A program made the position numbers and the translations under genes. The notes under the pieces are model-generated. The model had not been told where the DNA came from, ran no database searches, and worked only from the letters and a program-made list of their open reading frames with translations. A stretch of DNA of 64,000 nucleotides, taken from Spirochaetales bacterium (lineage in GTDB: Bacteria; Spirochaetota; Leptospiria; Leptospirales; Leptonemataceae). Below are positions 9,986-14,422 of this stretch, in pieces; the stretch's first letter is position 1; the number at the start of each line of letters is the position of its first letter. The stretch spans positions 1,798,001 through 1,862,000 of the forward strand of contig JABTUL010000001.1 in NCBI GenBank assembly GCA_015075425.1, given 5' to 3'.

Positions 9986-11560
9986 CTATTCCTGAACTTT
10001 GATCACCGGATTCATCTTATGAAATAAGTCTCTATTCTTCTTATAAAATTCCATGAAATAGCGATACTTCTGCTCATAAATACGCTGGTCCTGCTCTTCT
10101 GGATAAAAGGTTTGCTGGACACGAGCCAGGTTTTTGATTTCCCCGACGCGAATGGCACCCAGAGCAAGCAGGGCCAGGTAGGCCGCACCGCGTGGCCCTG
10201 CATGGTGGGGATCCTCCATCTGATGCACCGGGCATCCCAGAACGCTTGCAAGGATCTGGCACCACAGGGGTGAGCGGGCACCGCCACCAATAGCATTAAT
10301 GGCCTTGAGCTTCCGTGAACAAAATCGCTCAACGGCCAGGGAAAGCCAGCGAGCATTGAAGGCCACACCCTCAAGCGTGGCCCGAATCAGATCCGGACGG
10401 CGGGTTGTTGCAGCAATGTTAAAAAAAGCTCCACGCAATTGACTGTCTTCCACGGGTGTGCGTTCTCCGTACAGCCAGGGAAAGAAAAGCGGTCCGTCAG
10501 CTCTGACCGGTACCCGAGCTGCCCGGTCAAGCATCTGTTCCATGGCTTTATCATTCTGAACTGTCAGTCCATCATCACAAAAAAATATATTTTCTTTTAA
10601 GAACTGGAGCGAGTAGCCCGCAGTTTCCTGTTCATTGGCGATCAGATACCGCCCTGGCAGGGCAGACGGCAGACTGGCCATATTTCGCAAAATATCCGTT
10701 TTCTTAAATGGAACGTGACAGGTAAGCCAGCTTGATGTGCCCAGACAGAAATGGGTCTCAAAATCCAGCACAGCGCCCGAGCCCACCGCGGCTGCCTGCA
10801 AATCGGGTGTACCCATCACTACGGGAATGGAACCGGAAAGTCCCAGTTCACGGGCACATTCGTCGAGCAAATCTCCAGCAATGGATGTGGGCGCTACCAG
10901 ATCCGGAAGTTTTTCCCGTTCAACACCTGCCCAGGAGAGGAGGCGCCGGTCATAGTCTATTTTATCAATATTTCTATTATCCGTAACCCAGTGCAGAGCG
11001 ATAGAATCAAAACCGGCCAGACGTTTGCCCGTAAGCCTAAAAATCAAATAATCCTTGGGTTCAAAGAAGGTTGCCGCCTGCCGATACAGTCCCGGGGCCG
11101 TAGCCTTGAGGTAGAGGATATGCGCCAGCGGATCTTTGCCAGATTTACCGGGAACTCCCCCGGTTTTGTAGATCCAGTAGGCCAGCCGGTAAAGGCCGTA
11201 CCCCTCAAAAGAAGGCCAGCCGCCGCACACCTGCTCGATCAAAGGTGCGCCCCGCGCATCCATCCAGATCAGAGCCCGCCCCAGGGCCCTGCCCGATCGA
11301 TCCACGGCCACGGTTCCCGACCACTGCGAGCTCACACTGATGGCGCGCACCTGGAGCGGGCCCGCTTTTTGCAAGGCATCGCGGCAAGCATGAATGAGGG
11401 CCTGCCACCAATCGGCCGGATCCTGTTCCGCGCCTCCGCCTGGCAGGAAATGGACGGGAACAGAAGCAACCGAATCGGCAAGAACCTCGCCCTTAAGATC
11501 CATCAGCACAACTTTGGGACCGGAAGTGCCCAGATCGAATGCCAGTACCGCGCCTACCAC
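9986..11560 (-). CDS. FGGY-family carbohydrate kinase, xylulokinase-like
   Basis: A 524-residue sugar kinase. The N-terminal ATPase motif AFDLGTSGPKVVLMD and the C-terminal INAIGGGARSPLWCQILA are characteristic of FGGY kinases, and the EQDPADWW segment is typical of xylulose kinases. It would phosphorylate a pentulose or related sugar with ATP. No sugar transporter or isomerase is adjacent. The GTG start at 11560 overlaps the stop of the McsA/McsB-like gene by a few bases. Exact substrate (xylulose, ribulose, erythritol) is uncertain. Confidence 0.82.
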   Translation of the reverse strand: MVGAVLAFDLGTSGPKVVLMDLKGEVLADSVASVPVHFLPGGGAEQDPADWWQALIHACRDALQKAGPLQVRAISVSSQWSGTVAVDRSGRALGRALIWMDARGAPLIEQVCGGWPSFEGYGLYRLAYWIYKTGGVPGKSGKDPLAHILYLKATAPGLYRQAATFFEPKDYLIFRLTGKRLAGFDSIALHWVTDNRNIDKIDYDRRLLSWAGVEREKLPDLVAPTSIAGDLLDECARELGLSGSIPVVMGTPDLQAAAVGSGAVLDFETHFCLGTSSWLTCHVPFKKTDILRNMASLPSALPGRYLIANEQETAGYSLQFLKENIFFCDDGLTVQNDKAMEQMLDRAARVPVRADGPLFFPWLYGERTPVEDSQLRGAFFNIAATTRRPDLIRATLEGVAFNARWLSLAVERFCSRKLKAINAIGGGARSPLWCQILASVLGCPVHQMEDPHHAGPRGAAYLALLALGAIRVGEIKNLARVQQTFYPEEQDQRIYEQKYRYFMEFYKKNRDLFHKMNPVIKVQE

Positions 11561-12423
11561 GCAGCCTCGCTGAGCGCCCGCTCCATACGCTCCAGTGTTG
11601 CGGCAATATCAAAAGGCCAGCTGGAAAACCGATTGCTGAGTTCAAAACGTTCCCGGCCGGGCAGCCGAAGTTCAAAACCGGAGCGAGCCAGAACGCGCCT
11701 GCCGACAGATCCGGGCATGGCGTTTAACGGCAAAGAAAGGGAAAGACGTATGCCCCCGCCAGAATTGGTGGGACAGGCAGCCAGATAGCCAAATTGTGGA
11801 TGAAACTGGAAAACAAAAAGTCCTGAGAGTACCTGCAATTGCGTTTGTAAATACGGAATGGCCCCCGAAAAATCCTGCCGCCGGGCCAGACATTCATAGC
11901 GTATATGGTCCTCATCGCCAGAGTAAAGTTGTGTAAAGATACCGGAGGGCCGCTCCGTTTCCGTAGCGATAGATAAAAAATTAACTATATTGTATGTAAT
12001 CTTTCCATAGGGCAGCCCGTGAATATTGCGCATCATACGCAAACGCACAATTTCTCCTGGAATTTCTTTAATAAAGAATTCGCGCTCATTGCTCTGGACT
12101 GTTTCTTCTGCTAAGCCAGAAGAACGCTCCAGTAGATCGCGGCTGCGCATCTGTGCGGCCGCAGACACAATTTCGGGCTGTACAGAGATCTTTTGTTTGC
12201 TGCGGAAGCGGCGCAAAAGCAAAACCAGCTCCGGTTGAAACGCGCTGTAACAGTGCTGACAGGAGAGAAGCCTCTTCTTCTGGAAAGCCGCATAGGAAGT
12301 TCCGCAATGAGGACAGCGCGGGCTGTGAGCACATCGCGAACAGTAGGGCTCAAAGATGAATCCTGTGGGTCCGGGCCGGACAAGCTCGGCCGTCAGGGGC
12401 TCTTTGCAGCCGCTACATTTCAC
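11554..12423 (-). CDS. Compact McsA-McsB-like fusion: zinc-finger adaptor plus protein-arginine-kinase-like domain
   Basis: A 289-residue protein starting at GTG 12423, overlapping the lolD stop as GTGA. Residues 1-75 look like McsA: four CxxC pairs (C3/C6, C28/C31, C37/C40, C55/C58) and the phrase CPHCGTSYAAF...CQHCYSAF. Residues 120-270 look like the arginine-kinase domain of McsB: RLRMMRN, GDEDHIRYECL (cf. NEEDHLR), GYLAACPTNSGGGIRLSLSL with the catalytic-site Cys near 217, then ELRLPGRE. The stretch between the first two kinase motifs is about 35 residues, far shorter than in McsB, and the C-terminal phosphoarginine-binding part is missing. It may be an active minimal kinase or a degenerate regulator. 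No clpC or ctsR is in the window. Confidence 0.72.
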   Translation of the reverse strand: MKCSGCKEPLTAELVRPGPTGFIFEPYCSRCAHSPRCPHCGTSYAAFQKKRLLSCQHCYSAFQPELVLLLRRFRSKQKISVQPEIVSAAAQMRSRDLLERSSGLAEETVQSNEREFFIKEIPGEIVRLRMMRNIHGLPYGKITYNIVNFLSIATETERPSGIFTQLYSGDEDHIRYECLARRQDFSGAIPYLQTQLQVLSGLFVFQFHPQFGYLAACPTNSGGGIRLSLSLPLNAMPGSVGRRVLARSGFELRLPGRERFELSNRFSSWPFDIAATLERMERALSEAAW

Positions 12424-13097
12424 ACGATCTGTTCCAGTCGGCCAGTTCGCAGACGATAGCGAAGCGGTACCCGACCGGCCAGCTCGCCATCATGAGTGAC
12501 GATAAGCAGCGTAAAACCCAGCTCCTTTTGCAAAGAAAAAAGAAGATCCGCGAGTTTTTCACTGTTGCTTCGATCCAGGTTACCGGTTGGCTCATCGGCG
12601 AGGATCATTTTTTTTCCACCGACCAGAGCGCGGGCCACACCCGCCCGGGCGAGCTCTCCGCCAGAAACCTGGGCCGGATAATGATCCAGACGATGCTCAA
12701 GACCAACCATCTTGAGTTTTTCCTCTGCTTCCCTCCGCGCTTCCTTGCGGGGGCGCCGCTGGATGAGGACAGGCATCATCACATTTTCAAGAACAGTGAA
12801 ATCGGGCAGGAGATTGTGCTGCTGAAAAACAAAACCCAGCTCTGTTGAACGGAACCGCTCACGAGCGCGCTCCTGCATGACAGATAAATCGACATCGTTC
12901 AAGAAAATATGGCCTTTACTGGCAAAATCAAGTGTTCCGATGATATTGAGAAACGTGCTCTTTCCCGAGCCGCTGGCACCTTCCACCGAGAGCACACTGC
13001 CTCGCGGCGCCACCAGCTGCAAATCATTCAGAACACTGACCACGCCGGATTCACTGCGGTATTCTTTGGCCAGCCCTTCAACTTTAATTTCTATCAT
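12420..13097 (-). CDS. lolD: ABC transporter ATP-binding protein, LolD family
   Basis: A 225-residue ATPase with Walker A GASGSGKST, the Q-loop region FVFQQHNLLPDFTVLENV, an ABC signature VSGGELARAG, Walker B MILADEP and the switch His in VTHD. The signature differs from the usual SGGEQQR form. It powers extraction of lipoproteins from the inner membrane together with the permease encoded 8 nt upstream, or belongs to a related MacB-type exporter. A large lipoprotein complement in spirochaetes makes the Lol role reasonable. Confidence 0.82.
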   Translation of the reverse strand: MIEIKVEGLAKEYRSESGVVSVLNDLQLVAPRGSVLSVEGASGSGKSTFLNIIGTLDFASKGHIFLNDVDLSVMQERARERFRSTELGFVFQQHNLLPDFTVLENVMMPVLIQRRPRKEARREAEEKLKMVGLEHRLDHYPAQVSGGELARAGVARALVGGKKMILADEPTGNLDRSNSEKLADLLFSLQKELGFTLLIVTHDGELAGRVPLRYRLRTGRLEQIV

Positions 13098-13105
13098 AAA
13101 ATTCC

Positions 13106-14422
13106 TTACACATTTGCTCGAATGGTTTCCACAACCTTGAGCGATGCAGCCCGGCGGGCCGGAATGAGACCGGCTACTCCAGAGAGCACCAGAGCCACAA
13201 GGGCAATGGAAAAGATGATCTTCATGTCCAGATACACCGGCAGATGATCAAAATAGTAAATATCGCGGGGGATGAGTTGAATGGGGCTGCAGCTCTGGTT
13301 AAACCACACGCAAAGAGCATTGGCCAGATCCTCCACCATCTGGATCACGGACTCCAGCTGATTGGCGGCCAGAATCCCGGTCACGCCACCGACAGACGTT
13401 GCCATAATTCCCACAAGGAGTGCATTGGCAGTGAAAACAATGGTAATGCTCTGACTGGATAAACCCATGGCCTTCAACATGCCGATACTGTTTTCCCGCG
13501 AACGCACAAGAAGATGAGAGGTTACCCAGATCCCGGCCACGCCGGCGACGATGAGAAATCCCAGAATGATCAGCATCAAAATACGTTCGAGCTTTAGCGC
13601 GGCCAGAAAATTTCCTTTTTCTTCCTCAATGGTTACGATACGGTACTCCGTTGCGGGCAGAAAATCCTGGAGCAGGCGCCGTTGCATTCTCACTTCATTC
13701 AGGTTGCGCGTTTGAACCACGATTTCCGTGGTCCGGTTGCCCAGTCCTAAAACTCGCTGGGCCGTACGCAAAGACATGAGAATCAAATTGAGATCAAATT
13801 CATAGAAACCGGTGCGGAAAAAACCGGCAATCACGAAATCCCCCCGGGCCACGTCGCCCTCTTCACGCAATAATCCCTGGGCTGGCATGTACAGTCGTAA
13901 GCGATCACCAATGCGCAACCCATAGTAACGAGCCATTTCGCGACCAATCAGAATTCGATTGCGACCGTCAAAATCCTCAAGCAAGTCTTTCTGGTGATGC
14001 ACGATTCGCGGAAAATAGTTCATTCCCTCAGGTCCGGCCAGTACCGGCAGGGCACGCACCATCTTGCCCTCAAACTGGTTTCGATTGTTCAAAAGCACAT
14101 TCAGGGAAATGGATCCGTAAACCTGACGAACATTTCCGCGAGGATCTTTTTCTAAAATTTCCGCTGCAATTTGTTCATGATTGGCAATGCGATCGGTGGC
14201 CTTTTTCTTTTTAATGGTGATGTGATTACCGGAATTCCACAGAGAGCTGCGGACTTCCTGTTGAAATCCCGTGAAAATTGCCAGCACCAGCACCATAATA
14301 AAAACCATCAGGGCCATAAAAAAAAGGGCCATCCGGCTACCCGGATTGAACAGCATGGTTTTTGTGGTGCTACCGAGGAAGCGCAGGGCAACCCAGAGTT
14401 CAAGCATCCGGCCATGATCCAC
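13106..14422 (-). CDS. LolC/LolE-type ABC transporter permease
   Basis: A 438-residue FtsX/MacB-like permease. One N-terminal transmembrane helix (about residues 30-50), a long periplasmic domain (about 55-280) and three C-terminal helices ending in LIPARRAASLKVVETIR, the usual family ending. With the following LolD it would form a lipoprotein-release machine; only one permease gene is present, so it may act as a homodimer (LolF-like). An alternative start is the Met six codons in. It heads the minus-strand string that runs down to gluQ. Confidence 0.82.
   Translation of the reverse strand: MDHGRMLELWVALRFLGSTTKTMLFNPGSRMALFFMALMVFIMVLVLAIFTGFQQEVRSSLWNSGNHITIKKKKATDRIANHEQIAAEILEKDPRGNVRQVYGSISLNVLLNNRNQFEGKMVRALPVLAGPEGMNYFPRIVHHQKDLLEDFDGRNRILIGREMARYYGLRIGDRLRLYMPAQGLLREEGDVARGDFVIAGFFRTGFYEFDLNLILMSLRTAQRVLGLGNRTTEIVVQTRNLNEVRMQRRLLQDFLPATEYRIVTIEEEKGNFLAALKLERILMLIILGFLIVAGVAGIWVTSHLLVRSRENSIGMLKAMGLSSQSITIVFTANALLVGIMATSVGGVTGILAANQLESVIQMVEDLANALCVWFNQSCSPIQLIPRDIYYFDHLPVYLDMKIIFSIALVALVLSGVAGLIPARRAASLKVVETIRANV

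Follow-up and report, generated by a model that had tools for sequence, protein, structure and literature searches.

What could be the function of a protein in which the zinc fingers of McsA and the catalytic domain of McsB are joined in one chain? This question is raised by a gene in a 64,000-nt stretch of DNA, here called the window, from Spirochaetales bacterium GCA_015075425.1 (contig JABTUL010000001.1, positions 1,798,001–1,862,000), which GTDB places in the lineage Spirochaetota; Leptospiria; Leptospirales; Leptonemataceae. An initial annotation had located the fusion correctly at 11554–12423 and had not given the strand, which is minus. The minus frame is open throughout the 289 aa, and the opposite (+) strand is full of stops. 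The GTG start lies inside the stop codon of lolD (4-nt overlap), and the 3' end overlaps the downstream FGGY sugar kinase gene by 7 nt (Table 1). Scanning the surroundings of the fusion gene for promoters and terminators gave sites that were no more frequent than in shuffles.

Table 1. The fusion gene, its parts and its neighbours in the window (aa, amino acids).
Feature	Coordinates	Strand	Description
mcsA-mcsB fusion gene	11554..12423	-	289 aa, GTG start at 12423, stop ending 11554; homologues in 20 genomes
McsA-type zinc finger 1	12328..12423	-	Residues 1–32, Cys 3, 6, 28, 31; alignable with the first finger of separate McsA proteins
McsA-type zinc finger 2	12244..12315	-	Residues 37–60, Cys 37, 40, 55, 58; NCBIfam McsA, 8wtb_B and 8gqd_E matches
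Tail after zinc finger 2	12166..12261	-	Residues 55–86; likeness to the phosphagen kinase N-domain end in the family, weak in the window member
Phosphagen-kinase catalytic domain	11557..12054	-	Residues about 124–289; PF00217, PDB profile, Foldseek, residue table
lolD (lipoprotein-releasing ABC transporter ATPase)	12420..13097	-	TIGR02211, 4.5e-70; neighbour conserved in relatives
lolC/lolE permease	13106..14422	-	TIGR02212, 2.7e-53; neighbour conserved in relatives
FGGY-family carbohydrate kinase	9986..11560	-	PF00370/PF02782; occupies the clpC place of relatives

The encoded protein consists of two McsA zinc fingers, whose eight cysteines form the four CxxC pairs already noticed (C3/C6, C28/C31, C37/C40, C55/C58), followed in the same frame by a McsB/phosphagen-kinase catalytic domain. 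The kinase motifs that had been read there (RLRMMRN, EDHIR, GYLAACPTN and GIRLS) are all present in the minus-strand frame. PF00217 matches the protein with an E value of 2.8e-10 (40.4 bits, versus a gathering cut-off of 22.4); it is the single PF00217 match of this genome, and the same family is matched in all 20 members of the fusion family. The two NCBIfam models fall on the two halves: McsA (NF053706) on residues 34–76 (E 9.1e-7, 28.8 bits, below the 210-bit equivalog cut-off) and McsB (NF053707) on residues 170–236 (E 3.2e-10, 36 bits, below the 500-bit equivalog cut-off). The proposed single-gene fusion of McsA and McsB is thus confirmed. A profile of the 20 members searched against the PDB matched McsB (6fh1, 2.8e-28), the McsB kinase domain alone with McsA (8wtc, 2.9e-28) and McsA (8wtb_B, 5.2e-12). 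AlphaFold gave models with pLDDT values of 78.5 for the window protein and 70.2 for a relative (L083), and the best 50 Foldseek matches listed for each model were all phosphagen kinases, including McsB and 8wtc. Since the TM-scores are moderate (0.34–0.54 by query length), these models support the fold and not the domain placement. An unrelated fold for residues 110–289 had been envisaged at the outset; the PDB profile and Foldseek both assign the phosphagen-kinase fold to this region.

Zinc finger 2 corresponds to the finger by which McsB is activated in S. aureus (PMC12467219). Compared with separate McsA, the spacer between the fingers is shortened and a linker is found where the UVR domain stood. 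The McsA C-terminal UVR domain is not in the fusion; searching with this region of McsA picks up other genes of the genome instead. Outside ClpC, the match belongs to a protein of 184 aa (L164:3376-3927, + strand), which has a UVR motif at its C terminus and looks like the bifunctional-nuclease type, and similar matches occur order-wide in frames of about 200 aa. On the kinase side, the chain stops where the phosphotransferase domain ends. The dimerisation/phosphoarginine domain, which in McsB of S. aureus comprises residues 252–336 (PMC12467219), is absent in all 20 members, in agreement with the missing C-terminal part that had been pointed out for the window gene. The kinase part measures about 170 aa, versus about 250 in McsB, and had rightly been called short. 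The "short middle" described at the same time is partly peculiar to the window member, in which only about 40 residues separate RxRxxRN from DEDH (about 90 in McsB), GDED replaces NEED and the loop after E258 is shortened; this member is among the shorter ones of the family, the proteins of its relatives having 239–417 aa.

Homologues were searched in 393 genomes of the phylum, together with a PF00217 search of the order, and 20 were aligned. They are found in the family of the window genome (f1) and in its sister family (f2), for example in a Spirochaetia MAG (JAOUOA01), in JANSYA01 and in "Leptospiraceae bacterium HKST-UBA05". All 20 have the McsA-type zinc finger 2 and the kinase in one frame, which rules out a sequencing artefact joining two frames, a concern raised with the initial annotation; its expectation that the fusion would recur across Leptospirales was borne out. 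Zinc finger 1 is present in most members and missing in the f2 members and in two of f1 (L010 and L044). Among the genomes searched, the fusion is confined to this one order. Within Spirochaetota no fusion was evident outside Leptospirales, the McsA and McsB matches sitting in separate frames, and the other families of the class gave no PF00217 match. Outside the phylum, 77 loci (from Clostridia, Gemmatimonadota, Planctomycetota, Omnitrophota and other groups) likewise contained no fusion; mcsA and mcsB are separate there wherever both were recognised, and usually adjacent. In a tree of the kinase domain a single branch (support 99/100) separates all fusions from the other sequences; with long branches present, among them that of the window member (2.56), this tree is compatible with a single fusion event. 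We found no description of a McsA-McsB fusion in the open-access literature searched, and an earlier mention elsewhere is possible.

Is the shortened kinase domain still an enzyme? Mapping on McsB and arginine kinase showed that the window protein retains all eight mapped ATP- and arginine-binding residues (R127, R129, E171, R175, C217, R226, R253 and E258), and N220 likewise. E171 is the second acidic residue ahead of DH, and we take it to be the catalytic Glu225 of arginine kinase. R253 and E258 presumably correspond to Arg309 and Glu314, E258 lying five residues past R253 as E314 does past R309. Glu225, Glu314 and Cys271 have been named as essential in arginine kinase (PMC11075012). All 17 members of f1, the window protein among them, have R127, R129, E171, R175 and R253; R226 and E258 reach 94% conservation. 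Over these members the conservation of the eight residues ranges from 0.82 to 1.0, and their mean identity is 0.96 versus 0.45 for the kinase region, a value equalled in none of 20000 random draws. Because all mapped ATP- and arginine-binding residues are retained, an active minimal protein-arginine kinase appears much likelier for the window protein than a pseudokinase. Of the two readings offered in the initial annotation, the minimal arginine kinase therefore gains support from the intact set of active-site residues, and the pseudokinase sits badly with it. The fusions of f2 (L016, L020, L043 and L070) are different: they are shorter, they have lost the E258 loop, R226 is replaced by Lys in three aligned members, and in L070 the His of the catalytic motif is also lost (GDEDGIR). 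These sequences likely represent decay towards a pseudokinase. McsB is reported to need dimerisation in order to be fully active (PMC8370763). The surprising part is a family with intact catalytic residues yet without the dimerisation domain.

The genetic context points to a partner. The usual order is lolC/E-lolD-fusion-clpC: 17 of the 20 loci fetched from relatives have clpC directly after the fusion, and lolC/E and lolD are usually upstream. As the fusion gene lies between lolD and clpC in most relatives, ClpC, rather than lipoprotein export, is most likely its functional partner. The "lipoprotein-export operon" suggested earlier is right as to lolC/E and lolD upstream, and incomplete in that the gene mostly sits between lolD and clpC. 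A look-up of clpC, advised at the time, showed that the gene is present in the window genome, 117 kb from the fusion; in G090 it is about 40 kb away. In both genomes the relocated clpC still has its customary genes downstream, which indicates a split of the locus. The window genome's clpC (L163:6413-8986, - strand) is followed by genes for a protein of about 160 aa, a TPR-like protein and a MiaB-like protein, as usual. The parallel look-up of ctsR, over 30 genomes of the order, gave no CtsR match above the cut-off. In one genus (g7; L165 and L167) lolC/E-lolD is directly followed by clpC and the fusion is missing; this is a clean lineage-specific loss, and the gene is dispensable there. No phosphatase resembling YwlE was recognised: the genome has two LMW-phosphatase genes, with the loops CLGNICRS and CIENSNRS. 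Neither has a YwlE-like Thr in the loop, which we take as the criterion for YwlE. Loss of the phosphoarginine pocket of ClpC was considered as a marker of kinase loss and proved uninformative, the G-x-EH motifs being largely kept with and without the kinase.

A further likeness concerns the tail past zinc finger 2. HMM matches of the fusion profile relate it to the last part of the N-terminal domain in arginine, creatine and taurocyamine kinases, and its place is collinear: in both cases the segment stands directly before the kinase domain. It was first spotted by eye and is only about 18–20 aa long. With a threshold of at least 3 bits, an HMM of five arginine/taurocyamine kinase segments matched 31 of 62 McsA and, among the fusions, 5 of 20 (those listed being matched at the tail), as well as 1 of 1218 other proteins and none of 39 McsB. 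Against the PDB (177,635 sequences), the tail profile of all 17 f1 fusions placed taurocyamine kinase 4wo8 at the top (E 1.4e-4), above McsA, the match falling precisely where its N-terminal domain ends and the kinase domain follows; a tail profile of selected sequences gave 4wo8 (0.0025), 1vrp and 7re6. For the unselected McsA-only tail profile the best non-McsA match was creatine kinase M (1vrp, 0.09), followed by one unrelated protein, 4wo8 (1.0) and two creatine kinases (2.1–2.3). PF02807 was the Pfam family most matched by the selected tails (2 of 21 members, best E 0.038). The whole McsA profile searched against the PDB gave no phosphagen kinase at E<=10, zinc-finger matches filling the list. 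Judging from these matches, the tail and the phosphagen kinase N-domain end are likely homologous. It is a tentative and somewhat doubtful possibility that a McsA zinc-finger tail followed by a kinase domain, as displayed by the fusion in a living organism, was the ancestral architecture of creatine and arginine kinases. In that case the N-terminal domain of eukaryotic phosphagen kinases would derive in part from McsA. In an unrooted tree the eukaryotic kinases, the fusions and the separate proteins form three mutual clades, a pattern that does not place the eukaryotic kinases inside the fusion clade or the separate clade. No McsA origin of this N-domain was found proposed in the open-access literature; it may have been mentioned earlier elsewhere.

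Three other functions deserve to be weighed. One is that of a pseudokinase adaptor, no longer capable of phosphate transfer, whose task would be to bind clients or phosphoarginine and to hand them over to ClpC. Such a role would fit the missing dimerisation domain, the shortened loop of the window member and its long branch, as well as the f2 sequences, which lack zinc finger 1 and the E258 loop and carry Lys for R226 or GDEDGIR. However, the f1 members keep the catalytic arginines and glutamates, and the Glu pair that binds the guanidinium group would not be expected to persist in a protein that only binds. We thus regard an adaptor as unlikely for the window protein. A kinase acting on free arginine, or another phosphagen-type small-molecule kinase, seems quite improbable. 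Animal arginine kinases do use the same catalytic residues on free arginine, and the segment linking the fingers to the kinase is similar to the final part of the arginine/creatine kinase N-domain, but McsA, to which the kinase is fused here, activates a protein kinase, and clpC is the immediate downstream gene in most relatives. Moreover, the part of the N-domain with the specificity loop of arginine kinase, which we take to lie in that domain, is absent from the fusion.

Even less credit can be given to an accessory of lipoprotein export working with LolCDE. The upstream lol genes in the window and most relatives, and the translational overlap in the window, speak for it. Yet genus g7 keeps lolC/E-lolD and clpC without the fusion, which makes the lol link positional; G120 and G214 keep fusion-clpC without a recognised lolD adjoining, and the protein has no domain that would suggest export.

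Our preferred reading, which we hold to be probable on sequence grounds, is that the gene encodes a single-chain minimal protein-arginine kinase, with the McsA zinc fingers tethered in cis to the McsB phosphotransferase domain. In McsB, the catalytic Cys is oriented by the C-terminal zinc finger of McsA, which contacts the loop that precedes this Cys (PMC12467219). The window protein has both counterparts, zinc finger 2 and a loop at about residues 205–213 ahead of C217. Since the equivalent finger and loop are both in the fusion, activation in cis is the simplest model: zinc finger 2 would dock on the extended loop just before C217 and position the Cys, as McsA does in trans. The kinase domain could then phosphorylate arginines of damaged or selected proteins, and ClpC would recognise the arginine-phosphorylated proteins for degradation. 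Such a role would be the tagging of clients rather than control of CtsR, because no CtsR was found in the order. The dimer, the octamer cage and the phosphoarginine feedback of McsB are expected to be absent because the dimerisation/phosphoarginine domain is missing, and control would rest mainly with the tethered zinc fingers.

McsB has been described as a dimeric enzyme with a separate activator that senses its own product through a C-terminal pocket. Here, a whole order of Gram-negative spirochaetes appears to manage without the dimerisation domain or a separate activator, and the gene shares its locus with clpC in an order where no CtsR was found. Taken together, the sequences most likely represent a natural McsA-McsB fusion cut down to the zinc fingers and the catalytic domain, a predicted active protein-arginine kinase serving ClpC. 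If it is active, it would constitute a compact single-gene system for arginine phosphorylation, useful for studying the mechanism and as a tool, and it would add bacteria that lack the classical circuit to those with a phosphoarginine-ClpC pathway. The tail homology, if it holds, bears on how creatine and arginine kinases acquired their N-terminal domain.

Compared with known systems, the fusion shares with McsB of B. subtilis, G. stearothermophilus and S. aureus (6tv6, 6fh1, 8gqd) the phosphotransferase domain, the active-site Arg/Glu/Cys set and the association with McsA zinc fingers and clpC. It differs by the lack of the dimerisation/phosphoarginine-binding domain, by GDEDH for NEEDH in the window member, and by having its activator in the same chain. 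With McsA (8wtb, 8gqd) it has in common the two zinc fingers of four Cys each, arranged in the same order, together with the CYxxF tail, whereas its finger spacer is shorter and a kinase stands where McsA has the C-terminal UVR domain. Arginine, taurocyamine and creatine kinases share its catalytic fold and residues and a CYxxFxxxLxPLxxxYHG-like segment directly before the kinase domain; unlike the fusion, these eukaryotic enzymes have no zinc fingers, a helical N-terminal domain and small-molecule substrates. Identical in composition are the 8wtb and 8wtc structures, in which a McsA zinc finger is combined with the McsB kinase domain without the dimerisation domain. Those are two chains obtained by laboratory truncation, whereas the fusion is a natural single gene.
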